The notes under the pieces: generated by a model
What the model was told of the DNA's origin: nothing
Database searches by the model: none
Seen by the model: only the letters and a program-made list of their open reading frames with translations
In this document: in pieces, positions 19,968 to 39,105 of the stretch
How positions within the stretch are numbered: position 1 is the stretch's first letter
How the letters are laid out: each line of letters opens with the position of its first letter
NCBI GenBank assembly: GCA_021404565.1
Contig: JAAWWF010000003.1
Location: 62,001-126,000, forward strand
Direction: 5' to 3'
From: Roseivirga sp.
GTDB lineage: Bacteria > Bacteroidota > Bacteroidia > Cytophagales > Cyclobacteriaceae
Length of the DNA stretch: 64,000 bases
Program-made: the position numbers and the translations under genes

Positions 19968-20047
19968 GGGTGCAACTCACCGTTGAATTACAGAAAATGG
20001 TATGTGTTAACCGGCTTTTTTGGCTCTGAGTAGCATTTTTTTAAAAA

Positions 20048-20064
20048 CTACCCGAAACGGGTAG
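20048..20064. promoter_or_regulatory. Palindromic site CTACCC-N5-GGGTAG
   Basis: CTACCCGAAACGGGTAG, a perfect 6-bp inverted repeat around GAAAC. The same arms and a similar spacer (AGAAC) recur upstream of the secreted-protein operon at 23481. Probable binding site of a LuxR/NarL-type regulator; both candidates are encoded nearby. Confidence 0.5.
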
Positions 20065-20303
20065 GTCCACATTCCCATATTTGAGCCACCTTGGACGAAC
20101 CTGAAAGAAGTGAGGAAAAGAGAGCCAAAGGATATTGTGTGAATTGACGGGAGCTTTAAGAACCACATCTGAAAGGGACACCAAATTATTAGAATCAAGA
20201 CTCTGATTTACCTCTGTAAGATATCACGTTTTGTTGTATATGGAATCTTAAGCTGAGAGGTAGACGTGGCCTGATACTTGGTTTATTTTGATTGATTGGT
20301 ATG

Positions 20304-20335
20304 GAAAGGAGCATATTGAAGAGTGTGCTCCTTTC
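20304..20335 (+). terminator. Hairpin downstream of hybrid regulator
   Basis: Perfect 10-bp stem GAAAGGAGCA (20304-20313) / TGCTCCTTTC (20326-20335) with a 12-base loop, without a clear T-run. A comparable hairpin with TCCTTTCTC on its 3' side follows the giant gene at 35005. Confidence 0.5.
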
Positions 20336-20362
20336 TCCTGTAATAGCTAACCAATACATAAA

Positions 20363-20461
20363 GTGAGAGTCAAAGAAAGGAACAAAAGAATAGATAGAGT
20401 ACTTCAGGTAATCATGTGGGTGCTTTTACTGGGTATCCTTTATTTTGGAAGTATAGGCTAA
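20363..20461 (+). CDS. Possible 32-aa single-span membrane peptide
   Basis: GTG-initiated frame of 32 residues: a strongly basic N-terminus (VKERNKRIDR) followed by one hydrophobic helix (VIMWVLLLGILYFGSIG). An in-frame TAA at 20348 limits upstream extension, and no ATG start gives a complete peptide. The composition is that of a small membrane protein, not random sequence. It ends 8 bases before copy 1 of the long direct repeat, whose terminator would end the transcript. Copy 2 has no matching frame. Function is unknown and it may be chance. Confidence 0.35.
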   Translation: MRVKERNKRIDRVLQVIMWVLLLGILYFGSIG

Positions 20462-20469
20462 TGGCCTCC

Positions 20470-20576
20470 AAAGAAATCTGAGCGGATATAGATCAAGACG
20501 TGGTCATTGTCACAGCGTTTAGGTGAATAGAAAGCAAGCCGCCCTTGGTAAGGGCGGCTTATTTTATTTTTTGCAC
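20470..20576 (+). repeat. Long direct repeat, copy 1
   Basis: Bases 20470-20565 are identical to 35136-35231 (96 of 96). After a 4-base length difference in the T-run, both copies continue with TTTGCAC. The block begins AAAGAAATCTGAGCGG and ends in an intrinsic terminator. It has no conserved open frame of useful length. It lies between the hybrid regulator and the convergent histidine kinase gene. Confidence 0.95.
20536..20572 (+). terminator. Terminator inside repeat copy 1
   Basis: Perfect 11-bp stem AAGCCGCCCTT (20536-20546) / AAGGGCGGCTT (20550-20560), loop GGT, followed by ATTTTATTTTTT. Confidence 0.85.
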
Positions 20577-20614
20577 TCTCCTGATTCATCCTGCTTTGAT
20601 TCAGACAAGATCTA

Positions 20615-22510
20615 TTACGCTGGCGGCAGTTCAATTAGGAAATACAGTCCATTCTCATCCCCTTTGTTAATCAGCTTACCTTTAAGTTGTTCCACCATTA
20701 AGCTTATCAGCATCATACCTAGCTTTTGCTTTGGGAGATCTTCTGTCTCCTCGGGCATACCAGGTCCGTTATCCCTATAGTGTATCCATCGCTTGTTATC
20801 CTTTGTCTGCGATCGTAACTCAATGGTTCCATGTTCCTGATCATTAAAGGCATACTTGAATGAATTGGTGATGAATTCATTGATGACCATAGCCAGTGGT
20901 ACGGCCTCATCCATATCTACGGTCAGGTCATCACATTGGATCTTTGTGTTGACCTGACTGTCACCGCCAAATGCTGAGGCGATTTCCGGTATTAGTTGAC
21001 GCAGATATTCCTGAAAATTGATGTTAAGAGCATCGTCCAACTGATATAGATTCTGGTGGACCAGCGCCATAGATTGTATACGTTGCCTGAGAATTTGATA
21101 TAATTCACGCTGAGCCTCTATTTGCTCATTGTCTTCCTGCAGATAGATCAGGCCCGAAAGGATTGTGAGGTTATTTTTTACCCGATGATTCAATTCCTTG
21201 TACAGGACATTTTTTTGCTCTACCACATTGTTCAATTCACGATTGGTTTTCCGCATAAGCTCTTCCTGTGTCCGTAGTAATTGATTAGCCCTCCTAAATC
21301 GCAAATAGAGTATTACACTGATTACAGCGACAATCAGGAAGATAAAGGAGACAATTACCGTTGTAATCAGTGCTTTTCTATTACTGTCCGCCTGTTGACG
21401 GGCTAAAGAAGTTTCAACCTGTTGCTCAAGTAGTTTTTGCTCTGCCAGGTTTTTATCGTAGCTGGCTGTGAGCTCCCCCAACTCTATTGAATGTGTCTGA
21501 GCTGCCGCATCTAATTTGGTCCATAATGCCTCATTCAGGTAGGTGGCACTCTGCTGATATTTCCCTGACTCAAAGTAAACTTCTCCGGCCAGACGATACA
21601 TATCCCCCAAAATGCTCGTCCATCCGTTTTTCTTACTCAAAGCGATGGCTTCTAAGGTCATATCAACGGCTAAATCTGGTCTGCTCCTCCTGGTATGATA
21701 AAGCGCAAGATTGTGCAATACGATGGTGTAGTTCCTGTATCGTTTGTTGGCAAGTATATTGTCTTTAGCCGATTCCAGATAAGAAACAACCTCCTCAGGT
21801 GCGGAATTAGGGTTGTGCATGAGTAAAAACCCCATACTGTTTTGGTTAAGCCCTATGAGATAGAGGTCACCCGATTCCTCGGCAAGCTTTAAGGCCTCCC
21901 GCGAGTGGGCAAGAATGTTCTCAAAATTATCCTTGATATCACTTACAAAGAACTCCATGTAGTAAGCAGCTTTACCTAATGACAGGTATGCCCTGGGGCT
22001 TATCTCTATGGCTGAGGAGTTCAACAAACGTTCGCCTTCCTCGATAAATTTAAGGCACAATTCCGCATTGCCGGTAGCCCTGTAAAATTCAGACAGGTAA
22101 CCATAAACCCATAGCTGTCCATTCACATCATTCCTTTCTTTATAAAAAGTCAGGGCAGACATGTATGTCTGGAGAGCCGTGGTAAACTTGCTCTGATCCT
22201 TCTGCATAGAAGCCTCAGATAGGTACATCTCAATAATTTTTGAAGAGTCGGGCTCGTGGTGGGATAGCTTTTTCGCTTTTATAAAAAGCGAATCTGCCTC
22301 TTTGTAATTCCCTCTTTCTACCAGGCGTTGAGCCGCCTGACTATAAAGGGTGAAAAGTTCGAGAGAATCCCATTCCGAAATGGAAAGCTGACTCCTAAGC
22401 TCAAATAAGACCTCTTTTGCATCCGGTACCTGTAGTACTGGTTCAGTTCTTTGCTTAAATGCAGAGAAGACAAGTAGTACAATAATCAGGAGGTACTGAG
22501 GAGGTTTCAT
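20615..22510 (-). CDS. Histidine kinase with TPR sensor region (HisKA_2 type)
   Basis: 631 aa from the ATG at 22510, which begins the signal segment MKPPQYLLIIVLLVFSAF; an ATG six codons upstream is less likely. Residues about 40-350 form TPR-like helical repeats (for example VYFESGKYQQSATYLNEALW). A membrane helix follows (ALITTVIVSFIFLIVAVISV, about 383-402), then a short coiled coil. The HisKA_2 phosphoacceptor is LYKELNHRVKNNLTILSGL. The ATPase domain has NEFITNSFKYAFND and DNGPGMPE. HisKA_2 kinases usually pair with stand-alone response regulators, and one is encoded divergently 231 bases away. The 3' end converges on repeat copy 1. Confidence 0.9.
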   Translation of the reverse strand: MKPPQYLLIIVLLVFSAFKQRTEPVLQVPDAKEVLFELRSQLSISEWDSLELFTLYSQAAQRLVERGNYKEADSLFIKAKKLSHHEPDSSKIIEMYLSEASMQKDQSKFTTALQTYMSALTFYKERNDVNGQLWVYGYLSEFYRATGNAELCLKFIEEGERLLNSSAIEISPRAYLSLGKAAYYMEFFVSDIKDNFENILAHSREALKLAEESGDLYLIGLNQNSMGFLLMHNPNSAPEEVVSYLESAKDNILANKRYRNYTIVLHNLALYHTRRSRPDLAVDMTLEAIALSKKNGWTSILGDMYRLAGEVYFESGKYQQSATYLNEALWTKLDAAAQTHSIELGELTASYDKNLAEQKLLEQQVETSLARQQADSNRKALITTVIVSFIFLIVAVISVILYLRFRRANQLLRTQEELMRKTNRELNNVVEQKNVLYKELNHRVKNNLTILSGLIYLQEDNEQIEAQRELYQILRQRIQSMALVHQNLYQLDDALNINFQEYLRQLIPEIASAFGGDSQVNTKIQCDDLTVDMDEAVPLAMVINEFITNSFKYAFNDQEHGTIELRSQTKDNKRWIHYRDNGPGMPEETEDLPKQKLGMMLISLMVEQLKGKLINKGDENGLYFLIELPPA

Positions 22511-22713
22511 GACTGGTTGATGCGCCAAAGGTATACGAATTATTTTCTTCTACTAATGCCATCCGGAGTGAACCAGTGGGGAAACAGTTGGTCTGTTTTA
22601 TTGAAAAAAAACCAGATTTTGTACTCAGGCCCTACAAGAGTTGAACAGTATTTAACAAATTGGTAAATGTGAATCAGATATCTCATATTGTGAGCTTGAT
22701 GCTAATTTTTTCC

Positions 22714-22724
22714 CTACCCGGTAG
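22714..22724. promoter_or_regulatory. Short palindrome CTACCCGGTAG before the response regulator
   Basis: CTACC-C-GGTAG lies 17 bases before the response regulator start and within the divergent promoter region of the kinase. It shares half-sites with the longer palindromes at 20048 and 23481 but lacks the spacer, so it may be a variant or half-occupied site. Confidence 0.35.
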
Positions 22725-22741
22725 GTTGATAGCTTGACTTT

Positions 22742-23353
22742 ATGCCCTCTTCAGAACCACTTGATATATTTATTGTAGAAGATGAACTCATCATCACAGA
22801 ATCACTCAAGCGAATCTTGAAGAATCTGGGGCACAATTGTGCAGGATCGGCCAGATCTGTTCTCAGAGCTGAGAATGCCATCCAGAAAGGGAGTTTCGAT
22901 TTGGTTTTATTGGACATTAATCTGAATGGTAATAATGAGGGAATTGGATTGGGTCAACTGTGCCACAAACAGAATCAGCCATTCTTATACATCAGCTCTT
23001 ATTCAGATTATGAGACCGTAATTGCCGCTAAAAAAACGAAACCCGGGGGCTACCTCAATAAACCCTTTACTCCCCGGGATCTCATGATTGGCATTGAAAT
23101 GGCAACAATCAACAGATCTGCAGAAAATTACGAACAACTTGAAAAAGCGGTCAGGCATCTCGATTTATCCGAGCGGGAAATGGATGTACTCAAGTGTGTG
23201 AAAAACAGGTTGTCCAATACAGAAATTTCTAATAATCTGTCTATTTCTACTAACACAGTGAAGTACCATTTGAAGAACCTTTACAGCAAGCTGGATGTAG
23301 TGAGTCGCGCGGATTTTCTGAAAAAGATTGAGCTGATGACTCAAAAAAACTGA
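22742..23353 (+). CDS. Response regulator, receiver plus LuxR-type DNA-binding domain
   Basis: 203 aa. The receiver (residues 8-125) has the acidic pocket E13/D14, phosphoacceptor Asp58 (DLVLLDINLNG), Ser/Thr switch (LYISSYSDYE) and the conserved Lys (GGYLNKPF). The LuxR/GerE helix-turn-helix follows (LDLSEREMDVLKCVKN, NTVKYHLKNLYSKL, about 143-200). Its recognition helix is almost the same as that of the hybrid regulator upstream (NTVKFHLKNLYLKL). It is divergent from the TPR histidine kinase, its probable partner, and upstream of the secreted-protein operon, its probable target. Confidence 0.92.
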   Translation: MPSSEPLDIFIVEDELIITESLKRILKNLGHNCAGSARSVLRAENAIQKGSFDLVLLDINLNGNNEGIGLGQLCHKQNQPFLYISSYSDYETVIAAKKTKPGGYLNKPFTPRDLMIGIEMATINRSAENYEQLEKAVRHLDLSEREMDVLKCVKNRLSNTEISNNLSISTNTVKYHLKNLYSKLDVVSRADFLKKIELMTQKN

Positions 23354-23480
23354 ACAGTCGGGCCCTGATTACTTTTTAGACTTTTCTTATATCTGATTTC
23401 TGTTGTATAATTTTGTGTTTATCTCCTTATTGCCATTCAGATACAATTTGATGCCATTCACATGTAAATTATTACCATAA

Positions 23481-23497
23481 CTACCCAGAACGGGTAG
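23481..23497. promoter_or_regulatory. Palindromic site CTACCC-N5-GGGTAG upstream of secreted operon
   Basis: CTACCCAGAACGGGTAG, followed within 4 bases by another GGGTAGG half-site. It is 94 bases before the start of the small secreted protein, a suitable distance for activation of the operon promoter. Confidence 0.55.
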
Positions 23498-23590
23498 GAG
23501 GGTAGGTCTGTTTTATTTGCACTTTGCAGCTAGTGATGCTAACCGGTTTTGGCCGGAATTTTTTAAGACAACCAAAACACTACTAGAACA

Positions 23591-24064
23591 ATGACCACCT
23601 CTCAACCTGAGAAGGCGCTGCAAAGTGCTTTCCAAAAGGCGATGCCATTTCTCACAGGCAAAGCTTTCCTTAGTCTATTTGCGGGGCTCCTGCTTCTGGC
23701 ATCAGCCAGTCCGGTCAGGGCCCAATCTCAAGGCGAAGTAATTCAAAACTGGACAATGCTGGAAGAAGCAGAATTCTATTTTGATGTCGCTTATTCCGTG
23801 GTACGCTGCCAACTCGGTTCCGAAGCCATGATCATGCTCGATGCCTTCAATGAAGGTGGTAACGTCAGTGCCGTTGGATTCAGTCTCAAAATCAAAGATG
23901 CAGACGGTAGAGAAGTCACTCATGAAATCGAGAAGTTCGAGATTGCCTTTGCTGCCTCACAGCGGGGCAAGTGTGAAACGGATGAGTTCAGTCATCTGAA
24001 ATTTCCTGTGCCTGACGGTATTGACCCGGCTACACTCTCAATAGAAATCACTTATAACAAGTAG
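23591..24064 (+). CDS. Small secreted protein of unknown function, coupled to the giant gene
   Basis: 157 aa. A long N-region (EKALQSAFQKAMPF) precedes a hydrophobic signal core ending SPVRAQ at about residue 45. The mature 112 residues are predicted beta-rich (EAEFYFDVAYSVVRC, AMIMLDAFNEGG, VGFSLKIKDADGREV, LSIEITYNK) with two cysteines (VVRCQLG, RGKCETDE) that could form a disulfide. No T9SS domain is visible. I do not recognise the family. The stop is two bases before the ATG of the 3634-aa protein, so the two are co-translated. It may be a chaperone, anchor or partner of the giant; that is inference. Confidence 0.8.
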   Translation: MTTSQPEKALQSAFQKAMPFLTGKAFLSLFAGLLLLASASPVRAQSQGEVIQNWTMLEEAEFYFDVAYSVVRCQLGSEAMIMLDAFNEGGNVSAVGFSLKIKDADGREVTHEIEKFEIAFAASQRGKCETDEFSHLKFPVPDGIDPATLSIEITYNK

Positions 24065-24066
24065 CC

Positions 24067-27000
24067 ATGAAAAGACTGATTCCAATTTTATTCATGATTG
24101 CCTGCCTGGGAGTGAGTATGCAATCAAGAGCACAAAGCTGTGGCGATGTGCCCGTAATCAATAGTTTTGAACCCAATACCGGGTTCATTGGTAGTTTGGT
24201 GACTGTTTATGGAGCCAATTTCGATGCCACTACATTGGAAAACAATGTTGTATATTTTGGTGCTACACAGGCTGAGGTAGTTTCGGCAACATTCGGAACC
24301 CTGGAAGTAATTGTGCCTGTAGGTGCATCTACTGCGCCAATTTCGGTAACCAATGCCTGTGACCTCACGGCCTATTCCAAGGTGGCCTTTAACGGAGTTT
24401 TTTGTCCCACACCACTCGATGCGCAGTCTTATGACAACAGAGCATTCGATCTTACCGGGGTATATGGTGCCTATAATATGATCTCACAAGACATGGATCT
24501 GGACGGGCGTCCTGAGGTTATTTCTTCAAGAAATGACGGAGGCGTTACCATCGCCCAAAACAATTCCACTCCGGGAAATCTGTCATTTACGGCCATAAAC
24601 GATGCCACTGGAGGTGGACAAAGTGTTTATGCAGCTGACTTTGATGGTGACGGATACAAAGATTTACTCTATACGTACAATGTTCAACGAAATACCAGTA
24701 CAGGTCCGGGTAATATTTCCCTGGCTCCGATCATTTCAAACAATAGCATTAGTAATTACCAGGTAGCTGCAGGCGACTTTAACAATGATGGTAAAATTGA
24801 TATCATCGGTGCAGTAGGCAATGATGTATACCTGGCTTTGAATACAAGTACCGGCCCGGGTGTAATCAGCTTCGCGCCAAGGCAGTTTATCGCCAATGTG
24901 GGTGCAACTCCAACCGGCCTGCAAATAGCAGACATAGATGGTGATGGCAAGGTTGACTATATCGCCTCTCAGAGATTTGGCAACCGTGCGGTAAGTATGA
25001 GAAATACTACACCCACCGGTAGCACTACTACCAGCTGGGAAGCACCGGAATACTGGGCTTCTGATTCAGATGCTTCCGATGGTTTGGGTACGGAGCCTTA
25101 TCGCTCACAGCTTGCAGATTTTGACAAGGATGGTAAGATTGATTTTACCTCATGTAACTATGCAGGTACTACCAATACAGCGATCTGGAGGAATATATCC
25201 ACCGTTGGGAATATCGAGTTTGCACCTACCGTGAACCTTCCGGCTCCTGCGAATAATTATCGTATTGGTGTTGGGGATGTAGATGGTGATGGCTATCCTG
25301 ATATTGTAACCAAATCGCTGGGACTTAATGTGTTCTCAGTATACAGAAATACCTCTTCTGCTCCGGGAGAGCCTACTTTCGCTCCAAGAATTGACTATAC
25401 ATCAAGCTGGCAGGCAGAAGTTTCCGGCATCGTAATTGGCGATTTGGATGGTGACTTTGTGCCCGATATCGCTACCTCTGGTATTAACTCAAACAGAATT
25501 CTCTTTCATAGAAATACCAGTGCTCAGGAAGATACCAGCCCACCAACGGCCATCGCGCAGGATATTGTTGTAGGGCTCGATCCCTCAGGTAATGTTACGG
25601 TTACAGCAGGCCAGGTAGATAATGGTTCAAGCGATGCTTGCGGTATTGATTCTATTGTGCTTTCACAAACCACTTTTACCTGTGACGACATTGGCGAAAA
25701 CAATGTGACTTTAACGGTTACGGATAATGCCGGTAATGTATCTACTGCCGATGCTATTGTCAATGTGCAGCCTGCTGCCATCATCGTTTCTGGCCAATCC
25801 ACCGTTTGTGCCGGTCAGACCATACCAATGACTGCCAACGCTGGTGATTCATATCAGTGGTTCAAAGATGAAGTAGCCATAGTGGGTGCTACTAACCAGA
25901 CCTACAATGCTGGCGAAACCGGAGCTTACACAGTAGCAGTTACCAATGCAGGTGGCTGTTCGGGTACTTCAGTGCCTACTGAAATTACCATTAGTGGTGG
26001 AGCCTCAGTGGTGGTGACAGCCACTAGCGACACTTACTGTGTCGGAGTGGCTTTAACCTCTGCTCAGGGGGCGCTTTATCAGTGGTCAAAAGATGGCGTT
26101 GAAATCCAGGATGCTACTTTACAGACCTATGTGGTTGATGGCCCGGGTGATTATTCTGTTGAAGTTGTCAATCTATTTGGGTGTACAGCTTCTGGTTCAT
26201 ATACCATTCTGCCAGACTCTCAGGTGCCAGTTGTTTCTCTGAATGGAGCGGCTGCCATGGTCATCAATCAAGGTGATCTATACAACGAGCAGGGGGTTAC
26301 AGTAGTAGACAATTGCGGCTATCAAGTGGTGACTACCGGAACCGTAAACCCTAATAATGTTGATGCATATACCCTTACTTACCAGGCATTTGATGATTCT
26401 GGTAACGCTTCAAATATTGTTACCAGAGAGGTTACCGTTGTACCAGCAAGCATATCTATCGAAGCAAATGGCGAAACAGAATTTTGCCCGGGTGGCAATG
26501 TAGAACTTTCATTCCTGCCTTTGGTATCAGCCAAATTGGTAGATGAGGCAAGTGTACAACCAGTTGCGGCCATAGGCATGCGCAAGTTGATTGGAACCTA
26601 TAATGGTCCTGCGATAAGAATCAGAAGGGCCTCCGACAATACTGCACAAGATTTTGGTTTCAGCGGAACGGATTTAGATACCGATGCCATCGATGCTTTC
26701 CTCGCAGGCAGTCAGGGTTATGTATTTGCCCTGTATGATCAATCAGGAAACGGCAACGATTTTATCCAGACCAATGAGGCTGCTCAGCCTTTCTATATAA
26801 AAGATGGGTTTAATGGTAAGCCTACTTTCAGTACCGCCTCCGGTACGAGAAGGATTACTAATAACATAAGCCTGGTACCAGAATTCACTGTGATTTACGG
26901 AGCCAGACAGACTGGCCCTTCAAGGGGAAGAATGCTGTCTGGCATTAACAATAACTGGCTACTAGGTTGGTGGGGTGGTTATAAAAACCAGTACTACAGT

Positions 27001-30000
27001 CAAGGTTGGGTTGGCGGACCCTACGGTGCAGCTGGCGACAACACCTCTTACGTATATACCGGAACAGGTGCTCAATCCACCGATAACTACCAGTTTTTTA
27101 TCAATAGTCAGCTAAGCGCCTCTAATACTGGCGGTAGCCAAGGGCCAGCAGGCCTCGCCTTAGGGGCAGGAGGTACTAACTCTTATGAGCAATCAGATGG
27201 GTTGTTTACTGACCTGGTGGCCTATAATACAGTATTGTCTACCGAAGACAGAACGCTGGTAGAAGAGATCATAGGTTCTTACTATGGTATCTTTGGCACA
27301 GCTCCTACCACTGCTTCAACCTATACGCCAGTATTACAATGGATGCGAGATGGCAGCACCATCGATGGTGCGACTAATGAAGTCTATGCCGCCACCGAGT
27401 CAGGTAGCTATAGCGTAGACCTGAATGTTAATGGAACGATAGTTTCTTCAAACACAATCCAGGTGATCGCAGAAGATGACGAGGCACCAGTGCTTACTAT
27501 GACTGGTACTGATTTAATCGTTGAATTGGGAGATACTTATACAGAGCAGGGAGCTACAGTCACTGATAATTGTGATAGCCCAACTGTTGAAGTAGGAGGG
27601 GATGCTGTCAATACAGCAGTTGCCGGTTTCTATACAGTGACCTACGATGCAACCGATGTTTCCGGAAATGTAGCTACTCAATTGATAAGAGTAGTGGAAG
27701 TTCAGGACAATGCAAATCCGGTTGCGATAGCACAGGATGTGACTGTTTATCTGGACGCAAATGGAAATGCATCGGTTACGCCAGAACAAGTCAATGATGG
27801 CTCTTCGGATGCATCAAATGACATCACCATAAGCCTGGATCAAACAGCGTTCGAGTGCAGCCAATTTGGCGTCTCCTGTTCAGGTTCATCTATTGCATTT
27901 AATGGTACAGGTATCGCTTCGGGTGCCAATGGAGATAATATTCAAAACCTAGGTTTGGATCAATTGACAATGGAAGCCTGGGTAAAACCCAATGGTGGCA
28001 CTGTCAATTCAATCATTAGAAAAGCAGGCGATTACGATTTATACATTGCCAATAATACTCTATATGCTGAAGTATGGTATGAAGGAAGGGCCAGCAGTGC
28101 ACAATATTGGTATACCGGACCAACCGTTTCAGACAATGTGTGGTCCCACCTGGCCTTTACTTTTGATAAGGCCAACAACGGCTCTGGCAAATTCTATGTT
28201 AATGGAGTTGAAACAGTAGCGTCAGGAGCATCTCGTTCTATTACTCCAGATATTACTTTGGGAATTGGCGGCTCGACTGAATACGGTCAGAGCTTCACAG
28301 GGCTAATTGATGATGTAAGAATATGGAGCGTTGAAAGAACAAATACTGAAATCAATGATTTTAAAGATTTTTGTATCGATGCTAATTCTGTAGGCCTTGA
28401 AGCTTATTATAAAATTGAGGCCAATGAAGGCACCACGCTAACAGATTATTCTGGTAACGGAAATCACCTCACAATCACCGGAACTTCATGGTCATTTGAG
28501 GGAGCACCGATTGGAAGTCAGGGGGTAGAAGTGACATTGACCGTTACTGACGCTTCAAATAACAGTGCTACTGCAACAGCCAGCATAACGGTATTAGATA
28601 ACATTGCACCAACTTTAGTTGGAGTTCCAGCTGATGTTACGGTTGAGTGCAGTGCTGTACCAATGGCAGCTGATGTCTCTGCGGCTGATAATTGTGCAAA
28701 CCCTTCAGTCACTTTTATTGAAGAAAGGATAGATGGTATTTCTAACAATGATTACACCCTAACCAGAACTTGGACTGCTACTGATGCAAGCGGTAACACG
28801 GCTTCCGCAACTCAGATGATTACGGTGGAAGACAACATTGCACCAACCTTAGTTGGAGTTCCTGCTGATGTAGTAGTTGAGTGCAACGCAGTACCAGGTA
28901 TAGCGGCTGTCACTGCATCTGATAATTGCAGTGCAAACCCTTTGGTCTCTTTTACGGAAGAAAGATTGGATGGTATTTCTAACAATAACTATACATTAAT
29001 AAGAACCTGGACTTCTGTGGATGAAAGTGGCAACAATGCTTCTGGAACTCAGGTCATAACCGTGGAAGACAATACCTCACCGGAAATAACGGTTCAGGAA
29101 GATATCAGTGTATTGGCTACGAGCCCTGCTGGAGCTGTGGTGAATTATCCAATTCCGGTGGCAACCGATAATTGTACAGATACTGCCGAGTTGGTACCCG
29201 AATTGACTACAGGATTGATAAGTGGAGATACCTTCCCATTGGGAATAACTACAGTTACCTATACAGTTATTGACCCTTCTGGTAATGTGGCAGAGAGTAC
29301 CTTTAACGTAACAGTCGAGGGGCTGGCTCCGGACGTTATTGTTCCTGCCAATATTACGGTAGATAACGATGGTGGAGAATGTGGGGCAATAGTGGATTTT
29401 GCTGCTACAGATGCAACAGGTATTCCGGCTTCAGTCATTACTTATGATATCCAGCCCGGAAGCTTCTTTGCGGTAGGCACTACAACAGTAACTGCCACAG
29501 CAACAAATGCTGTGGGGGCATCGACAAAAACTTTTACAGTAACTGTAATTGATGCTGAAGCACCCGTCATCAGACTAAATGGAAATGCACGGGTCTTTCA
29601 GGATGCTTATACACCTTATTTGGATTTGGGTGCCACAGCAAGAGACAACTGTTTCGCTACTCTGACAAGTTCAGATAATGTGAATGTAGATGTTCCGGGG
29701 GCCTACACGGTGACTTATATTGCCATTGATGAGCAGGGTAATAGAACTGATGCCTCCAGAACGGTTATTGTCAGGGATATCACTTCGCCCACCATAGCCA
29801 CGCAGGTTGCTATAGCATCTCTTGATGCGGCAGGTGAGACTGACATCACAAGCAATGATGTAGTCATGAACGCATCAGATGACTCAAACACGGTAAATCT
29901 GACAGTCAGCAATACCGATTTTGAATGTGCTGATCTCGGAGACCAAACAGTTCTTGTATCTGCCGAAGACGGTAATGGTAACAGCTTAGCTGTTTCTCAA

Positions 30001-33000
30001 AATGGTTTGATAGGCTATTGGAAATTTGGTGGAGCCAACCCACTCGTTGACCTGACGGGCAATTGGGGAGATATTGAGTTTGTAGGAAACGCTTCACTCA
30101 GCAATGGAGCATTGGAAGTGAATACCAATGGCTTTGCAAGAACATCAGGATACAGCGGACAAGCGATCACCAGTAAGACGCTTATCTCTTATGTTAGCTT
30201 AGATAATATTGACATAAGATCAGGCTCGGCCATGTCAATAGATGGTGTGACGAATGATAATTTCGATGCCATCGTTTATGCAGAAAGACAGGTGAGGAGA
30301 TGGATGAATGGAAGCTCTAGCTTTCGCAGAACTCAGGACTTAAACCCAGGCTTTGCGGAAACTGAGGCTAATCAATTGATTCAAATGGCCATCACCTATC
30401 AGAATACAGGTAGTCAGGTGCTGATCACAGCGTATCGCAATGGGGTGGCTATTGGTTCTTACCTGAGTGGTAATGCCTCAGGCTGGGCTCCCGGCAATGC
30501 TGAAATATTGTTTGGTGCCAGACATAGTTACGGAAACCGTCAAATTGGAGGTATTGATGCTACTATTACCAAAGCCTTACTCTATAACAGAGCCTTATCA
30601 GCTCAGGAAATCGCAGCCATGAATGGCATGCCTGCGACTGTGAGTGTGATTGATGAAATTGCACCGACAATTCCGGCCGTAGAGAACATCAGCGTATTTG
30701 CAACAAGTGCGGCAGGTGCCGTGGTCGACTATGATACTCCTGAGGGTATAGACAATTGTTCGGCTACTACGGCTTTGACTGCAGGGTTAGCCAGTGGAGC
30801 AACCTTCCCGATTGGCATAACAACTGTTACCTACACCGTTACAGATCTTTCAGGCAATGAGGCCACTAGCACATTTGATGTGGAAGTGGTAGGGATTGCC
30901 CCTGAAATTGTTGCACCGGCAGCTATTACTGTAAGTAATGATGCTGGAGTATGCGGAGCAATTGTAAGCTATGTCGCTACGGAAACCACGGGTATTCCTG
31001 AGTCAATTATTACTTATGACATCATACCAGGAAGTAGTTTCGCAGTAGGTACTACTACAGTAACTGCTACAGCAACCAATGCAGTAGGTACATCAACGCA
31101 AAGCTTTACGGTGACAGTTGAGGACAATGAACTGCCTGTGGTAACTACTCAAAACCTGGTCATCGATTTAGATGCCAACGGAAATGCGAATATTACCGCT
31201 GCGCAAATCGATGCAGGCTCTATGGATAATTGTGGTGTCGCTGGTGCGGTGCTAAGTCAAACATTCTTTGATTGCTCCAACGTTGGCGAAAACACAGTGA
31301 CCCTGACGGTGACAGACATCCATAACAACGTACAGACAGGAACAGCTACAGTGACTGTAAATGATGTGACTGCAGCAGCGATTGACGCTCATGACATTAC
31401 TGTCCAATTGGATGTGAATGGCAACTTTAGTTTAGATGGAGAGAACCTATTGAGTACTGGTGAAGTCGATCCAAGAGAATTATTAACTGCCAGAAGAGCT
31501 TTAGCCAGAGCATCTGCCATCAATAGAAGAAATCAAGCAAGAGAGGTGGCATATGAAAACCTACTGCAGCAACAGATCACTGAAGTAGAAGAGGCTGAGG
31601 CGGTTGTAGCTGAAGCGCAATTAGGTGTAGCAGAAGGGAATGCTAGATTATTAGCTGCTCAGGAAGAATTGGCGAACGCCACCACTGAGGCAGAAATATT
31701 AACAGCAACTCAAAATGTAGCCAGAGCGGAAGCCATACTTGAACGTCTTCAAGCCAGACTGAATGCCCTTGAAAGAAGGGTGGTTAGTTTACAGGGGTTA
31801 ACAGAAGAAACGCGTCAAAGAATTGATGTAGCGCAGACAGCTACACAAGAATCAACATTGGCTCTTGCAGACGCACAAGCTGCACTTGATGCTTTAGAGA
31901 ATCCGGAAGAAGGAATCTTTGGAACAACTTCAGACGCCTGTGGTGTTGAAACAATCATAGCTTCTCAACTCGATTTTGATTGCTCACATGTAGGTCCAAA
32001 CACAGTGACATTAACTGTCACCGATGTGAATGATAATGTGAGTACAATAGATGTAATTGTCAATGTAGAAGACAATGTGAAGCCAACAGTCGTCACGAAC
32101 GACATCATCATACAGCTAGATGAAAGTGGAAACGCCAGCATCACTGCAAGTGATATCAATAATGGTTCAAACGATGCCTGTGGTATCCTGAGCACAACCA
32201 TTGACATCAGCAGCTTCGACTGCTCAGACATCAATGAGGTAAACACAGTGACCCTGACGGTAACTGATAACAATGGCAATGCAGAAACTGGTACGGCAAT
32301 CGTAACTGTAGAAGACAATGTGAAGCCTACGGTAATTACTAAGGATATCACGATCGTGTTAGATGATTCTGGTAATGCCAGCATCACAGCAGCTGACATA
32401 AACGATGGCTCAAGTGATGCCTGTGGTACCCTAAGCACAACGATTGATGTAAGCACATTTACGTGTGCCGATGTCTTCGAGACTAATGTGGTGACCCTGA
32501 CTGTAACCGATAACAACGGCAATGTTGAGACCGGTACGGCCATTGTAACTGTAGAAGACAACACTGCTCCAGTAGTAATCACTCAACCCATCACGGTTGC
32601 GCTGGATGCTAACGGAGAATACACCATCCAGCCATCAGATGTAGACGGAGGCACAACAGATGCCTGTACGTTTACCTTGAGTCTGGACAATAATGCCTTC
32701 AACTGCAGCACGCTTGGCGAAAACACGGTGATGCTGACGGCAACAGATGCCAGTAACAACAGTACTACCATGGCGGCCACAGTAACGGTGATCGATAATG
32801 CCGCACCAACCATTGTAGCCAACAATATCGAGGTACAACTGGACGAAAACGGAGAGGCATCCATTACGGTGTCCGATGTTGATGGTGGTACCTATGATAA
32901 TTGTGCAGTGGCTACCGTGACCATAGATATCAACAGCTTTAGCTGTGATGACCTGGGGGAGAATACCGTAACGATTACTGCTACAGATGTAAATGGTAAT

Positions 33001-34971
33001 ACCAGCACCGGGCCTGCCATTGTTACGGTGGTGGATGTTATTGCACCAACGGTGGGTACCCGCAACATCTCGGTAGAGCTCAATGAAAACGGAGGAGTGA
33101 GCATTACTCCTGAAGAAGTACTGATCCTGAGCGAAGACGACCTGGAGACTGGCGAAGATTGCACCGTGAGTGCTGCTGAATACCATGCCATGTGGTTAAG
33201 CAAATACGTCAAGGACACCGGCTATGGCAAAAACAGAGGTAGCTATAGAGGTAAGGGCAAGAAGAGAGGTCATTATTACTCAAAGTATAAGGATACTCGT
33301 TTTGTCTTCGATGCCAATGGTGGATCAATAAGCCGAAATTTGGATGGTACAGCTACTGTAACAGGCATCCTGGTAAGCACGGTAGATCCTGATGATCAAT
33401 GGACAGTAAGCCTCAACCTGGAAAATGCGAGAAACTGGTCTGAATGGTCTGCTCTGGGGAGAAGCTATAAAGATGAGAAAGGACTGGCCGGTAAGCGATA
33501 CCTCGACTGGACCTATTATGAAATGGCTGCAGACAGCAAACTTATCGGAGCCGGAGACAATGCCGGGGAAGAAGTAGCGCTGACCCATGCACCATCGGAT
33601 TACAGATATGGCTTCCAGCTGGGTGATGCTGCCAACAGTAAAAATGGCAACTACGGCATGAGCGGCTGGTTCTTCTATACCAACAGAGGTGGTAAGCAGG
33701 TGCAAGGTGATTTCAATCTGGACATTGCCGACTGTGCCGATCAGCCATTGCCGGCTGGAAGTGTGATCACCAGCGATAACTGTAGCATTGTGAGCTACGA
33801 GCTGGACATGACTAGCTTTGATTGCAATAATCTGGGTGAGAATACGGTTCATGTAACGGTTACAGATCAAAGTGGCAATGCTACTACCGAAACAGCTACC
33901 GTAACCGTGAGCGATAACATTGCGCCCGTGGCGGTAGCTACGAACATTACAGTGAGCCTTGGAGCAGATGGAACGGTAACAGTAGACCCTTCCGAATTGG
34001 ATGGTGGTAGCACAGATAATACGGATTGCGACCTGACCTTCACACTGAGCAAAGATTTCTTTGACTGTGATGATATAGGTAAGGGTAGCTATTACCAGGA
34101 TAACCATAGCTGTGACGATGACCGACACCGACATAAAAAAGGTAAAGGACACTATAGCTATAAAGGCAAGGGCTATGGTCATAGAAAAGGCAGCAGAAAG
34201 AAAGGCCATAGAGTAACCCTGACGGTAACGGATGCTGCTGGTAACAGCTCATCTACCACAGCTTATATCACGGTGGTAGACGATCTTGCCCCGGTAATTT
34301 CCGCTGATCCTGTGACCGTGGTAGTGTACGATAGAAGAAAGGAGTACCTCAAGAAGTATGATGTTGAGCCAAGAGTTACGGATAACTGTGAGGTGTACAA
34401 AGTCTACTTCCCGCGAACTCGTTTTGATCGTACTGATGCCGGTATGAATACTGTGATGGTGACGGCTACTGACAAATCGGGTAACAGGGTCACCGGGCCT
34501 TTGAATGTCAATGTGATTGACATTTCGAGCTATGGCAGACGTGTGCAGATTTGCTACAGAGGTAGAACTTATCGCGTGAGCAAGTCCAGGGTGCAATACT
34601 ACCTGAGAAAAGGAGCCTCTTTGGGTACCTGCTCCAATGATATCACCATGGTAGTAGGCGGATCTGATCTTAACCAGACTATTGGCGAACGTGAAGTTGA
34701 CTGGGAGCCTCTGATTGAACTCGGAGCCTACCCTAATCCTACCAGGGGCATGACCACGATCACCTTTAGCAGTGAAGAAGCCGGTCCTGCACAAATGGCT
34801 GTGGTGAGTGCTGCCGGTGTTCGAATGGCCACCCTTTACGATGGCAATATAGAAGCAGAAGAAAATGTGAAAGTGACCTACAACACAGGTGAACTTCCTA
34901 ATGGCATGTATATCATCAGGCTTGTGACTGCAGGTAAAGTAAAGAACCTTAAGCTGATGGTTAAGAAGTAA
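24067..34971 (+). CDS. Giant multidomain T9SS-secreted surface protein (putative adhesin/matrix protein)
   Basis: 3634 aa. Signal peptide 1-23; IPT/TIG domain (about 29-110); six FG-GAP/VCBS repeats with DxDxDG Ca2+ motifs (139-485); Ig-like and HYR/DUF5011-like modules to about 1210. A segment at 818-1078 resembles the catalytic-type domain of arabinofuranosidase B (GPAIRIRRASDNTAQDFGF, YDQSGNGNDF). LamG-like segments lie at 1269-1486 and about 1977-2190. A coiled coil covers about 2456-2617. Four near-identical 81-residue modules follow. A Trp-rich segment covers about 3039-3230, and a basic K/G/Y/H stretch 3339-3382. A degenerate Cys motif (VQICYRGRTYRVS, LRKGASLGTC) and a type A T9SS domain (YPNPTRGMTTITF, final 80 residues) end the protein. 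Enzyme activity is not claimed. It is probably surface-bound and Ca2+-stabilised. Confidence 0.92.
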   Translation: MKRLIPILFMIACLGVSMQSRAQSCGDVPVINSFEPNTGFIGSLVTVYGANFDATTLENNVVYFGATQAEVVSATFGTLEVIVPVGASTAPISVTNACDLTAYSKVAFNGVFCPTPLDAQSYDNRAFDLTGVYGAYNMISQDMDLDGRPEVISSRNDGGVTIAQNNSTPGNLSFTAINDATGGGQSVYAADFDGDGYKDLLYTYNVQRNTSTGPGNISLAPIISNNSISNYQVAAGDFNNDGKIDIIGAVGNDVYLALNTSTGPGVISFAPRQFIANVGATPTGLQIADIDGDGKVDYIASQRFGNRAVSMRNTTPTGSTTTSWEAPEYWASDSDASDGLGTEPYRSQLADFDKDGKIDFTSCNYAGTTNTAIWRNISTVGNIEFAPTVNLPAPANNYRIGVGDVDGDGYPDIVTKSLGLNVFSVYRNTSSAPGEPTFAPRIDYTSSWQAEVSGIVIGDLDGDFVPDIATSGINSNRILFHRNTSAQEDTSPPTAIAQDIVVGLDPSGNVTVTAGQVDNGSSDACGIDSIVLSQTTFTCDDIGENNVTLTVTDNAGNVSTADAIVNVQPAAIIVSGQSTVCAGQTIPMTANAGDSYQWFKDEVAIVGATNQTYNAGETGAYTVAVTNAGGCSGTSVPTEITISGGASVVVTATSDTYCVGVALTSAQGALYQWSKDGVEIQDATLQTYVVDGPGDYSVEVVNLFGCTASGSYTILPDSQVPVVSLNGAAAMVINQGDLYNEQGVTVVDNCGYQVVTTGTVNPNNVDAYTLTYQAFDDSGNASNIVTREVTVVPASISIEANGETEFCPGGNVELSFLPLVSAKLVDEASVQPVAAIGMRKLIGTYNGPAIRIRRASDNTAQDFGFSGTDLDTDAIDAFLAGSQGYVFALYDQSGNGNDFIQTNEAAQPFYIKDGFNGKPTFSTASGTRRITNNISLVPEFTVIYGARQTGPSRGRMLSGINNNWLLGWWGGYKNQYYSQGWVGGPYGAAGDNTSYVYTGTGAQSTDNYQFFINSQLSASNTGGSQGPAGLALGAGGTNSYEQSDGLFTDLVAYNTVLSTEDRTLVEEIIGSYYGIFGTAPTTASTYTPVLQWMRDGSTIDGATNEVYAATESGSYSVDLNVNGTIVSSNTIQVIAEDDEAPVLTMTGTDLIVELGDTYTEQGATVTDNCDSPTVEVGGDAVNTAVAGFYTVTYDATDVSGNVATQLIRVVEVQDNANPVAIAQDVTVYLDANGNASVTPEQVNDGSSDASNDITISLDQTAFECSQFGVSCSGSSIAFNGTGIASGANGDNIQNLGLDQLTMEAWVKPNGGTVNSIIRKAGDYDLYIANNTLYAEVWYEGRASSAQYWYTGPTVSDNVWSHLAFTFDKANNGSGKFYVNGVETVASGASRSITPDITLGIGGSTEYGQSFTGLIDDVRIWSVERTNTEINDFKDFCIDANSVGLEAYYKIEANEGTTLTDYSGNGNHLTITGTSWSFEGAPIGSQGVEVTLTVTDASNNSATATASITVLDNIAPTLVGVPADVTVECSAVPMAADVSAADNCANPSVTFIEERIDGISNNDYTLTRTWTATDASGNTASATQMITVEDNIAPTLVGVPADVVVECNAVPGIAAVTASDNCSANPLVSFTEERLDGISNNNYTLIRTWTSVDESGNNASGTQVITVEDNTSPEITVQEDISVLATSPAGAVVNYPIPVATDNCTDTAELVPELTTGLISGDTFPLGITTVTYTVIDPSGNVAESTFNVTVEGLAPDVIVPANITVDNDGGECGAIVDFAATDATGIPASVITYDIQPGSFFAVGTTTVTATATNAVGASTKTFTVTVIDAEAPVIRLNGNARVFQDAYTPYLDLGATARDNCFATLTSSDNVNVDVPGAYTVTYIAIDEQGNRTDASRTVIVRDITSPTIATQVAIASLDAAGETDITSNDVVMNASDDSNTVNLTVSNTDFECADLGDQTVLVSAEDGNGNSLAVSQNGLIGYWKFGGANPLVDLTGNWGDIEFVGNASLSNGALEVNTNGFARTSGYSGQAITSKTLISYVSLDNIDIRSGSAMSIDGVTNDNFDAIVYAERQVRRWMNGSSSFRRTQDLNPGFAETEANQLIQMAITYQNTGSQVLITAYRNGVAIGSYLSGNASGWAPGNAEILFGARHSYGNRQIGGIDATITKALLYNRALSAQEIAAMNGMPATVSVIDEIAPTIPAVENISVFATSAAGAVVDYDTPEGIDNCSATTALTAGLASGATFPIGITTVTYTVTDLSGNEATSTFDVEVVGIAPEIVAPAAITVSNDAGVCGAIVSYVATETTGIPESIITYDIIPGSSFAVGTTTVTATATNAVGTSTQSFTVTVEDNELPVVTTQNLVIDLDANGNANITAAQIDAGSMDNCGVAGAVLSQTFFDCSNVGENTVTLTVTDIHNNVQTGTATVTVNDVTAAAIDAHDITVQLDVNGNFSLDGENLLSTGEVDPRELLTARRALARASAINRRNQAREVAYENLLQQQITEVEEAEAVVAEAQLGVAEGNARLLAAQEELANATTEAEILTATQNVARAEAILERLQARLNALERRVVSLQGLTEETRQRIDVAQTATQESTLALADAQAALDALENPEEGIFGTTSDACGVETIIASQLDFDCSHVGPNTVTLTVTDVNDNVSTIDVIVNVEDNVKPTVVTNDIIIQLDESGNASITASDINNGSNDACGILSTTIDISSFDCSDINEVNTVTLTVTDNNGNAETGTAIVTVEDNVKPTVITKDITIVLDDSGNASITAADINDGSSDACGTLSTTIDVSTFTCADVFETNVVTLTVTDNNGNVETGTAIVTVEDNTAPVVITQPITVALDANGEYTIQPSDVDGGTTDACTFTLSLDNNAFNCSTLGENTVMLTATDASNNSTTMAATVTVIDNAAPTIVANNIEVQLDENGEASITVSDVDGGTYDNCAVATVTIDINSFSCDDLGENTVTITATDVNGNTSTGPAIVTVVDVIAPTVGTRNISVELNENGGVSITPEEVLILSEDDLETGEDCTVSAAEYHAMWLSKYVKDTGYGKNRGSYRGKGKKRGHYYSKYKDTRFVFDANGGSISRNLDGTATVTGILVSTVDPDDQWTVSLNLENARNWSEWSALGRSYKDEKGLAGKRYLDWTYYEMAADSKLIGAGDNAGEEVALTHAPSDYRYGFQLGDAANSKNGNYGMSGWFFYTNRGGKQVQGDFNLDIADCADQPLPAGSVITSDNCSIVSYELDMTSFDCNNLGENTVHVTVTDQSGNATTETATVTVSDNIAPVAVATNITVSLGADGTVTVDPSELDGGSTDNTDCDLTFTLSKDFFDCDDIGKGSYYQDNHSCDDDRHRHKKGKGHYSYKGKGYGHRKGSRKKGHRVTLTVTDAAGNSSSTTAYITVVDDLAPVISADPVTVVVYDRRKEYLKKYDVEPRVTDNCEVYKVYFPRTRFDRTDAGMNTVMVTATDKSGNRVTGPLNVNVIDISSYGRRVQICYRGRTYRVSKSRVQYYLRKGASLGTCSNDITMVVGGSDLNQTIGEREVDWEPLIELGAYPNPTRGMTTITFSSEEAGPAQMAVVSAAGVRMATLYDGNIEAEENVKVTYNTGELPNGMYIIRLVTAGKVKNLKLMVKK
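32065..32793 (+). repeat. Tandem 243-bp modules inside the giant gene
   Basis: The block starting GTAGAAGACAATGTGAAGCC at 32065 recurs at 32308 and, more diverged, at 32551: a period of exactly 243 bases (81 codons). Each module encodes one beta-sandwich repeat with SDACG and FxC cysteines. The first two are close at the DNA level. An older pair with a 234-base period starts at 28621 and 28855 (GGAGTTCC-GCTGATGT). Confidence 0.8.
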
Positions 34972-35004
34972 CCGGTTATAAGGTAATTGATTGAAAGGTG
35001 AGTC

Positions 35005-35032
35005 AAGGGGTGTATTGAAAAATACACTCCTT
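35005..35032 (+). terminator. Terminator hairpin of the giant gene
   Basis: 12-bp stem AAGGGGTGTATT (35005-35016) / AATACACTCCTT (35021-35032) with one G-T pair and GAAA tetraloop, followed by TCTCTTGT. It lies 33 bases after the stop codon. Confidence 0.65.
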
Positions 35033-35135
35033 TCTCTTGTCTGAAGCGACAAAATCAGGATTGCTTAAAAAAACATAAAAGACAGTACCCGGGATGTGAG
35101 GTGGTAACACTTCACTCTTTGAAAGAGATCCGGAT

Positions 35136-35238
35136 AAAGAAATCTGAGCGGATATAGATCAAGACGTGGTCATTGTCACAGCGTTTAGGTGAATAGAAAG
35201 CAAGCCGCCCTTGGTAAGGGCGGCTTATTTTTTTGCAC
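35136..35238 (+). repeat. Long direct repeat, copy 2
   Basis: The first 96 bases (35136-35231) are identical to 20470-20565, in the same orientation, 14,666 bases away. It follows the giant gene and its own terminator hairpin. Sequence on either side differs from copy 1, apart from a hairpin with TCCTTTCTC on its 3' side about 135 bases upstream in both places. Confidence 0.95.
35202..35234 (+). terminator. Terminator inside repeat copy 2
   Basis: Same AAGCCGCCCTT/AAGGGCGGCTT stem as copy 1, followed by A and seven T. Confidence 0.85.
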
Positions 35239-35328
35239 CCGGTCAATGGGCAGGGGTCAGGTTTCTCCCGCGATAAATCATTGCGACACCAAATTGATTG
35301 TCAAAACAAACAATCTTACTCTTTTTTC

Positions 35329-35402
35329 GTAACCGGTTACATAATGGCTGTCCGATATTGCAAATCGTACGGAAACCGTACAGTTACGATTATTATCGTA
35401 AC
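35329..35402. promoter_or_regulatory. Cluster of three palindromes upstream of AraC regulator
   Basis: GTAACCGGTTAC (35329-35340), GTACGGAAACCGTAC (35367-35381) and GTTACGATTATTATCGTAAC (35383-35402) are each perfect inverted repeats, the last two almost abutting. They lie 149-222 bases before the chosen start of the regulator. All begin with GT and end with AC, so they could be sites for one dimeric protein or for several. No partner is identified. Confidence 0.5.
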
Positions 35403-35550
35403 TATGGATTGATCAGCGGTTACAAAGGGTGATAAGCTGTAGGTACATCATTAGAGTGTGGTCAACCTCCGGATGACAAATTGCCGCTGGCATAAATTCA
35501 ATGTTCGGCTAACTCTCCGGGATGTTAATATTATTACAAAGGTCAAAAAA

Positions 35551-36504
35551 ATGATAGCATACGAAGGTCAGCATACTATCCATAAAATGGGTGGCCAGCT
35601 TTACTGGCGCAATGGTGAAGGTACCATGGAAGGTATCAATAATGGATTCGCACTCTTCTCATCGGAGAACCTGGAAGCGGAAAATCAGGAAACCCGTTTC
35701 TCGGTCAGATTCGGGATTAACGGGGTTCAACGTTATAAGGTAAACGGAGAACTTCTGAAGGTTACTGACGATCAGTTTCTGGTGATGAACAAGGGGACCC
35801 TCTATGATGTGAAAGGGGAGGATCGTGCGGATACTACCATGCTCGCCTTTTGCTTCAATGAGCAGTTTGTCAGCGATTTTGTTACTTCGGTTTCTCGTAC
35901 GGATGAGCAGCTCCTCGACAGTTTCGATTTATATCGATCTGACTTAAAATCGCTGGAATTTCCGCTGCATACCCTATTGGTTGATGAGAAAATCAAGCCC
36001 ATGATCTGCGACATAGTACAAGCCAAATTAAGGCTTGAAACAGATGAGGTAGATGATTATAGCATCTTCAACAGAGTGCTGCAAATGGTGGTTCAGAACA
36101 ATAAGTCTTCCATTGACTCATTTAAGGGTCAGGACATTGTTAAGAACTCTACCAAAGTGGAGCTCTACAAGAGGTTATCGATTGCCCGTGATTACATTCA
36201 GGCACATTTCAGTGAAGACCTGAATCTCTCGGAGCTGTCAAGAGTAGCCTGTCTGTCTCCATATCATTTCCATCGGGCTTTTAAGAATACGTTTAAGATA
36301 ACACCCAAAAAGCTTGTGACGCATTTGAGAATTGAGCGAGCCAAATGGCTTCTCGAAAACCGAAGTTATTCTGTACAAATGATCTGTCAGGAAGTTGGGT
36401 TCAGAGATGTCAGTTCTTTTACAAGGTTGTTTGCCAGCTATACCGGTGTAACTCCTTCAGTCTACCGTTCAATGTTTAGCGGCTCTCTCAGGAGCATTGC
36501 CTGA
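35551..36504 (+). CDS. AraC-family transcriptional regulator
   Basis: 317 aa from the ATG at 35551; an upstream GTG at 35458 would add 31 non-conserved residues. The N-terminal 200 residues form a cupin-like sensor (NKGTLYDVKGEDRADTTMLAFCFNEQFV). The C-terminal tandem helix-turn-helix is complete: FSEDLNLSELSRVACLSPYHFHRAFKNTF with ITPKKLVTHLRIERAKWLLE, then VQMICQEVGFRDVSSFTRLF and TGVTPSVYR. The ligand is unknown. It stands alone between repeat copy 2 and a convergent gene. Three palindromes in its promoter suggest autoregulation or control by another factor. Confidence 0.9.
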   Translation: MIAYEGQHTIHKMGGQLYWRNGEGTMEGINNGFALFSSENLEAENQETRFSVRFGINGVQRYKVNGELLKVTDDQFLVMNKGTLYDVKGEDRADTTMLAFCFNEQFVSDFVTSVSRTDEQLLDSFDLYRSDLKSLEFPLHTLLVDEKIKPMICDIVQAKLRLETDEVDDYSIFNRVLQMVVQNNKSSIDSFKGQDIVKNSTKVELYKRLSIARDYIQAHFSEDLNLSELSRVACLSPYHFHRAFKNTFKITPKKLVTHLRIERAKWLLENRSYSVQMICQEVGFRDVSSFTRLFASYTGVTPSVYRSMFSGSLRSIA

Positions 36505-36534
36505 GACTGACTGGTCTGGGGAGATATCGTTGAC

Positions 36535-37140
36535 CTATCTGCGATTTTTCACAAACTTAAAACCCACGTAGATTCCATTGCCATCGTAAGCCGGGTTGGT
36601 GGGTACAAACCCTGTACCGTTGGAGATATGCATCCATCGCCAACCAAAAAGAAGGTACTGTCCGCTATTTAGTCTGACATTATAACCCATCCCATAACGC
36701 ACTGTGAAGTTCCAATGAGTACCACCATATGGGAATGGAGCCGCTGTAAAGAGCATGCCATAGCCTGTTTCGAGGTAGAAGTTATGGTGGTGAAAGTTGA
36801 GCAGCTCATATCTTGCAAAACCGGTAACTCCAAGCCCAATGGTATTACTTTCGAATTCTTCAAAAATTATATAACGATTACCTCTTGGAATGGACAACGA
36901 CAAGCTACCTCCAATGGACAGTTTGTCCAGTATGTAGCCAGAGACCTCTGTATTCAGTTGTGTTATGCTGATGGGCTTGTCGTTTTCTTCGCTGAGGTAA
37001 TGTTCCAGGGTGGTTAGAAAATGAACATTCCCGCGACCATGGTGCATGGCCGTGTCTGTTCCGGTAAAACTGAATTTTTGGGCATAGCCAGTTTGCATGC
37101 CGCTTGCGAGGAGCAGTATGATAAAAACCTTCCAATACAT
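36535..37140 (-). CDS. Acyloxyacyl hydrolase / PagL-like lipid A deacylase family protein
   Basis: 201 aa from the ATG at 37140, which begins a clear signal peptide (MYWKVFIILLLASGMQTGYAQ); the frame is open further upstream but overlaps the previous gene. The body is an eight-stranded type outer-membrane barrel. Near the C-terminus FGWRWMHISNGTGF and NPAYDGNGIYVGFKF match the PagL signature, with catalytic His and Ser in HxSN followed by the NPxxxxxG strand. PagL removes a 3-O-linked acyl chain from lipid A. The neighbour upstream (8 bases away) is a fatty acid hydroxylase, consistent with a lipid-modification pair. Confidence 0.8.
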   Translation of the reverse strand: MYWKVFIILLLASGMQTGYAQKFSFTGTDTAMHHGRGNVHFLTTLEHYLSEENDKPISITQLNTEVSGYILDKLSIGGSLSLSIPRGNRYIIFEEFESNTIGLGVTGFARYELLNFHHHNFYLETGYGMLFTAAPFPYGGTHWNFTVRYGMGYNVRLNSGQYLLFGWRWMHISNGTGFVPTNPAYDGNGIYVGFKFVKNRR

Positions 37141-37148
37141 AATGATGA

Positions 37149-37961: not shown

Positions 37962-38046
37962 TTTCTAATTCTTTTTCCAAAAGACGCTCAAAACACCCAT
38001 ACAGGATGATCTGATTCCTGAAAAACATAACCGTTTTTAAAATCGG

Positions 38047-39054: not shown

Positions 39055-39105
39055 TGCCCTTTAATTTCGGAGCTAAAATAGGGCCTGTGATTTAAAACAA
39101 AGACT

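Follow-up and report, generated by a model that had tools for sequence, protein, structure and literature searches.

Near-identical noncoding elements around a giant type IX secretion gene module in Roseivirga sp. as probable members of a 3′-UTR-type small RNA family

Why two nearly identical pieces of noncoding DNA should stand on either side of a segment of 14.7 kb is the question raised by a 64,000-nt stretch of the genome of Roseivirga sp., the whole of which is referred to here as the window. The initial annotation had described two blocks of 96 nt, identical and in the same orientation, and a direct-repeat search confirmed their identity, orientation and spacing: the repeat was 99 nt long (20470-20568 and 35136-35234, both on the plus strand, 14,666 nt from start to start) and 99% identical, with a single mismatch in the T-run. 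This identity is far beyond chance. Neither copy lies within a likely gene, in agreement with the earlier description of the repeats as noncoding. The proposed check, a wider search with the block, gave a divided answer, as the own genome (8.57 Mb, 81 contigs) contained the two copies only (192 and 175 bits) and no third one was found there, while related elements were present in eight other genomes of the genus. The other seven rows of the own-genome search were reverse-read terminators of both copies (32.8 bits) and short matches, 15-17 nt long, that scored 30.1 bits at most.

In each copy, a 5′ stem strand is followed by a hairpin and then by a seed (AGCGUUUAGGUGAAUAGAA), and the element closes with an intrinsic terminator. 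The seed occupies positions 20514-20532 (AGCGTTTAGGTGAATAGAA) in copy 1 and 35180-35198 in copy 2, and terminator stem-loops were predicted at 20536-20560 and 35202-35226, so that the common intrinsic terminator claimed for the ends of both copies was found; the minus strand of the first stem-loop is also terminator-like and faces the kinase gene. Besides the repeat and own-genome searches, which define both copies, copy 1 is delineated by folding and by comparison with a relative, G009; its fold was better than those of 200 out of 200 shuffled sequences (z -3.65), much of the score coming from the terminator. It should be added that hairpins are also present upstream of copy 1 (20303-20336, plus strand, -22.0 kcal/mol) and copy 2 (35005-35032, plus strand, -16.6 kcal/mol). 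They were thought to lie about 135 nt before each copy; their common 3′ side, CTCCTT followed by TCTC, is real, and the distances are unequal (about 133 and 103 nt). The first of these hairpins is possibly a weak terminator or a processing site.

Copy 1 follows an annotated gene for a hybrid two-component regulator (15984-19967, plus strand) and a small hydrophobic ORF of 32 aa with a GTG start (20363-20461, plus strand), which ends 8 nt before the copy. The small ORF had no match in the NCBIfam search; it is conserved in G009 (78% over 32 aa; 74% in the element-wise comparison) and recognisable in G005. Hydrophobic ORFs of 32-33 aa are conserved immediately upstream of elements of the copy 1 type (the window ORF, L037 and L042). 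Within the bracketed segment, annotation and family searches identified a histidine kinase with TPR repeats (20615-22528, minus strand) and a giant cargo protein of the type IX secretion system (T9SS) of 3634 aa with HYR, Ig-like, laminin-G and Por_Secre_tail domains (24067-34971, plus strand). Between them are an annotated response regulator with LuxR-type output (22742-23353, plus strand) and a leader protein of 157 aa and of no known family (23591-24064, plus strand), whose homologues occupy the same place in G005, G007 and G011. Copy 2 starts 165 nt after the stop codon of the giant gene. The module of minus-strand kinase, response regulator, leader and giant gene recurs in the same order near the motif in G007 (L184), G011 (L043) and G005 (L185), with a partly similar gene set near the motif in L042 and L181. 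We infer that the segment is flanked by the repeats mainly because the RNA element forms the end of each of the adjoining units.

As a separate observation, ACCAAAACA or CAACCAAAA stands directly before the start codon in those operons of the giant module that encode leader proteins and regulators, with six of the eight leader start regions for each; the sites are 23566-23578 in the window and those in L040, L041, L181, L184, L185 and L186. This element matches the seed with one mismatch and may perhaps be the target of another RNA.

The segment was suggested to be a module with its boundaries at the repeats, removable by recombination between them. The one relative compared at this locus, G009 (contig name Roseivirga sp. 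UBA6061), aligns to positions 18507-20568 and 35321-39983 of the window and lacks the DNA between (20569-35320), where it has about 2.4 kb of other DNA, including a gene that is AraC-like by appearance. The left alignment ends at the end of copy 1, although the edges are ends of local alignments and not exact breakpoints. On this alignment, the bracketed segment is best described as a presence/absence module between two relatives, which upholds that part of the suggestion. A single copy with the outer flanks directly joined was not found, the order in G009 being one copy, about 2.4 kb and the right flank. Since the other DNA lies where the right flank of copy 2 would be, G009 is no clean excision product, and the proposed excision by recombination between the copies gains no support from it. 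A reading of the repeats as a recombination scar or exchange site, in which they edge a mobile or exchangeable module, owe their identity to arrival or gene conversion and have an RNA role only secondarily, draws on the missing segment and on the left alignment edge in G009, as well as on the near identity of some copies within a genome; the 2.4 kb of other DNA speaks against it, as do the conservation of body and seed across species while flanks diverged and the uneven identity of copies within genomes (both below). It would furthermore leave a stand-alone gene and complementary sites at start regions unexplained. We consider this reading improbable as the main account, but it is compatible with the one favoured here, and both may be true.

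The favoured reading, i.e. that the repeats are small RNA genes, gains from the conservation of the element. A search of 147 relatives with the block returned one copy of 88% identity, that of G009, and elsewhere short matches to one part, AGYGTTTAGGTGAATAGAA. In the comparison with G009, body plus seed were identical at 58 of 61 positions (95%) with no gaps, against 69% for the terminator and 69% for the upstream intergenic DNA; the strong functional constraint proposed earlier therefore holds for the body and seed and not for the terminator sequence. The 15-mer TTTAGGTGAATAGAA, present in the seeds of both copies, occurred 13 times in six of the 19 genomes of the genus and never in its reversed form, each time just 5′ of a hairpin-terminator, and these terminators differ between most species. 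The seed 16-mer was found in seven of 390 genomes of the family, six of them belonging to this genus; a single case from another genus, G158 (L059), has the 16-mer before a terminator. Scanning of GTDB genomes with the 19-mer seed gave 14 stretches. Five genomes of the genus contributed 11 of these, a single MAG contig that bears the label Flavobacteriaceae and is nearly identical to the G015 locus contributed two, and Hymenobacter (L047) one; the last, located at the end of a coding sequence, was treated as a chance match and not as a family member.

The 12-mer seed core GTGTTTAGGTGA was counted 64 times in the 19 genomes, compared to nine times for the reversed control. Seed searches with up to three mismatches were left out of the counts, being too loose, as their reversed control was of the same order. 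Among the 59 distinct 12-mer sites classified, none was counted by the terminator rule, since it missed some evident terminators. A 5′ block, AAGAWANCTG, is present in the window-type elements and in the stand-alone genes described below; it pairs with CAGYGUUU of the seed in many folds and in the consensus structure of the stand-alone RNA, which would leave AGGUGAA as the open part. Further sites with seed plus hairpin, neither a stand-alone gene nor behind a giant gene, were L118 (G000), L127, L121 and L133; a gene start follows the first three at a distance of about 90-100 nt, and these may be leaders.

Altogether, 20 window-type elements were collected from nine of the 19 genomes, two of them with small changes in the 3′ part of the seed; these are the sites fetched and not an exhaustive list, and four G015 sites among them may be three, because contig ends overlap. 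A giant T9SS gene, or what is left of its tail, immediately precedes 13 of the 20, and another element is an additional copy behind one of these genes. The small hydrophobic ORF precedes three (window copy 1, G009 and G005), and the remaining three have a contig end on their upstream side. Identity between copies within a genome ranged from 0.62 to 0.99, so that not all copies are homogenised, and had a mean of 0.69 between genomes, a pattern suggestive of recent duplication or gene conversion in part of them. Such near-perfect duplicates, together with the two to four copies carried by G015, G007, G011 and others, would also be expected from a functionless dispersed repeat such as an insertion-sequence remnant or MITE; with only two copies in 8.57 Mb, a constant orientation between a preceding gene and a following terminator, conservation against G009 and no match in plasmid and phage collections, this explanation is highly improbable, and it was rejected on copy number. 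A plasmid or phage origin was likewise rejected, as these collections gave no match.

It should also be noted that in G015, G016 and G007 (L184) the block AAGAAATCTGAAG is similar to the final codons of the T9SS tail, and that it is made up of those very codons in G015 and G016. On the minus strand of L044, a stretch of about 210 nt, which stops 111 nt short of the second motif, encodes a 71-aa ORF resembling the leftover T9SS tail of a giant gene, and this remnant followed by a motif copy looks like the trace of giant-gene loss.

Bacterial small RNAs derived from 3′ UTRs form the 3′ end of an mRNA, share its terminator and have no promoter of their own. The window elements lie at the 3′ end of presumed mRNA units, a position that would fit this class, from which they differ in general in that their seed core also occurs in a stand-alone gene. 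One such gene is present in each of the 19 genomes and accounts for 19 of the 64 sites of the 12-mer; its layout is that of the window copies, with the 5′ strand AAAGATAAGTCTGGGT, hairpin, ACCCAG, seed core and terminator. Upstream of it, the motif TAnnTTTG, which we take to be the Bacteroidota-type promoter element, was found within 170 nt in 19 of 19 genomes (control: five in 19 × 600 nt). The motif was seen at none of 16 window-type sites, where about 1.5 would be expected by chance and four upstream stretches were shortened by contig ends, so this contrast is weak if taken alone.

A model built from the stand-alone RNA alone matched 19 of 22 motif sites in the 17 sources given to it, with one other match, and recognised the window copies with E values of 0.019 and 0.031 in 274 kb; these matches are partly due to the 12-mer and the terminator, which are common to both classes. 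Covariation in the stand-alone RNA is modest: three of 35 pairs are changed on both sides, which seven of 500 shuffles reach, and the covariation score exceeds 500 of 500 shuffles, an excess that related sequences alone can produce. The rival possibility that the elements act only in cis, terminating or protecting long mRNAs, perhaps bound by a protein, and never in trans, accords with their frequent place directly behind T9SS genes and with the missing promoter motif. We regard it as unlikely, considering that the same seed core and layout make up a stand-alone gene throughout the genus, that a terminator does not require an invariant 15-mer, and that complements of the seed recur at start regions.

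The RNA family appears to be recognisable with confidence only in this Roseivirga-like genus. At E ≤ 0.1, model R1 matched 25 of 147 genomes, i.e. the 19 of the genus and six outside it (G024, G039, G083, G103, G132 and G136), and the exact seed core was present in none of these six outer stretches, all of which were read. Those of G136 (L226) and G024 (L229) have GTTTAAGTGAATAA and AGGTGAAAA, respectively, before a terminator-like hairpin, and are possible distant relatives of the family.

The small RNA reading calls for targets, and several complements of the seed were located shortly before genes for long secreted proteins: L173, L174, L175 and L176 have them at one syntenic locus, and L177 is a further case. 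The complement site of L180 is separated from the first ATG by 165 nt. For avoidance of bias, the region after a conserved AIRS-domain gene was taken in all 19 genomes, and the 13 with a long ORF there were analysed. A T9SS giant is encoded in this place; in G003 it has 2345 aa and a Por_Secre_tail. The seed complement CACCTAAAC was the most shared 9-mer of the giant gene start regions, occurring in six of the 13, the own genome included, compared to three of 13 for the best unrelated 9-mer in regions that otherwise share little sequence. The start region reads ATACACCTAAACACTTGAATG in the own genome, CACCTAAACGCTG in G011 and CGCCTAGACAC in G009, with pairing in the last kept through G-U. G018 fell outside the count by the ORF-length filter, though the 9-mer is present there, and G007, G008, G014, G015 and G017 had no usable region for it; the complement was absent from the start region of this giant gene in G001, G002, G004, G006, G010 and G013, all of which have the stand-alone RNA. 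A second candidate target is a gene of 213/214 aa of no known family, with a full or partial complement before its start in four of four genomes and another 10-15 nt after its stop, also in four of four, the latter being the basis of its discovery. This gene adjoins a DUF3667 gene in L182, L134, L145 and L146.

The own genome showed no enrichment of the 10-mer TTCACCTAAA (20 sites, compared with 27 for the reversed form), which counts against a large regulon; three of the 20 sites are the small RNA genes themselves and two precede a start by no more than 30 nt. The window copies, which have AGCG, pair less strongly with the giant target of the own genome (-16.4 kcal/mol) than the stand-alone seed does (-22.6 kcal/mol), and shuffled seeds reached about -23 to -24 kcal/mol at the best of 439 start regions. 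These duplex energies are only suggestive as support for targets, the set being biased by the use of the motif to fetch many of its loci; L197, L201 and L202 are the only top-ranking rows obtained without it. A target within the operon of the window itself was rejected for want of a good site. The seed complement was also seen in the middle of one conserved, FtsZ-like gene in five orthologues (L104, L110, L117, L125 and L139), where it may reflect conserved coding only.

Taken together, the two repeats are probably paralogous members of a 3′-UTR-type small RNA family that would pair with mRNAs of giant proteins. Among the options offered by the initial annotation, that of a duplicated small RNA with its terminator appears the best supported, given the conserved seed, the stand-alone gene and the complements at start regions. 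The DNA shows directly that the element exists, how it is built, where and on which strand it lies, how far it is conserved, how the two classes differ in the promoter motif and where complementary sites occur; from these we infer that it is transcribed, is processed from the 3′ UTR, pairs in the cell and has repression as its outcome. Copy 1 would most likely be transcribed as the 3′ end of the unit of hybrid regulator and small ORF, and copy 2 most likely as that of the giant T9SS gene unit, each transcript stopping at the intrinsic terminator of the element. The seed, situated between hairpin and terminator, would then base-pair with the translation-start regions of certain mRNAs, a notable one being that of another giant T9SS gene, which would be repressed; the stand-alone RNA with the same seed core may act likewise in every genome of the genus. 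One may go further and propose a circuit of mutual exclusion, in which the 3′-UTR small RNA of each giant T9SS operon silences the other giants through the shared seed, the housekeeping RNA sets the baseline and the small RNA moves with gain, stacking and loss of operons; this extension is tentative, and we hold it to be doubtful in its entirety.

The repeat and six loci, three of them of the stand-alone RNA, were searched against Rfam 15 and the family was not found there, so a known Rfam family was rejected. The nearest described family is FopS, a paralogous small RNA family of Bacteroides (Rfam RF04319; PMC11697453), whose seed, according to that source, pairs at susC translation-start regions, whose members are in some cases 3′-UTR-derived, and which is bound by RbpB (PMC11697453). 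The likeness to FopS is one of outline, with several paralogous RNAs per genome and a common seed that directly precedes an intrinsic terminator; in the own genome, the two window copies and the stand-alone gene, as well as the seed-and-hairpin site L118, share a seed 5′ of a terminator or hairpin. Membership fails, since the FopS model scored 21.8 bits (E 0.33) at window positions 20500-20571, below the Rfam gathering cut-off of 56 bits. Compared with FopS, the hairpin here precedes the seed, the seed sequence is different, the predicted targets are giant T9SS genes in place of susC, and no RRM protein as a counterpart to RbpB was found in the own genome. The latter search (PF00076, E ≤ 1e-5) gave no match in the own genome and was positive in two of 14 genomes of the control, including Bacteroides ihuae; Hfq was not found in the own genome by search either.

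Within the open-access literature searched, we found no paper joining type IX secretion, small RNA and Cytophagales, none joining Roseivirga with small RNA, and none joining type IX secretion with UTR-derived small RNA. If the proposed reading is true, it would add, beyond gut Bacteroides, a concrete small RNA family for which a seed, predicted targets and a housekeeping member driven by a promoter can be named, and which links giant surface-protein operons in a genome where neither Hfq nor an RRM protein was found. Such an RNA may adjust the choice of giant surface proteins that are produced, and how a cell with several giant secreted proteins makes this choice would become a testable question.

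Two other repetitive features of the window should be mentioned. At positions 40055-40174, an array of about 15 units of the 8-nt TTTACCAG lies upstream of the ORF at 40175-40987, on the 3′ side of the minus strand, and two to three noncoding repeats spaced by 164-178 nt are located at 12905-13260, just downstream of a tRNA gene (12772-12845).
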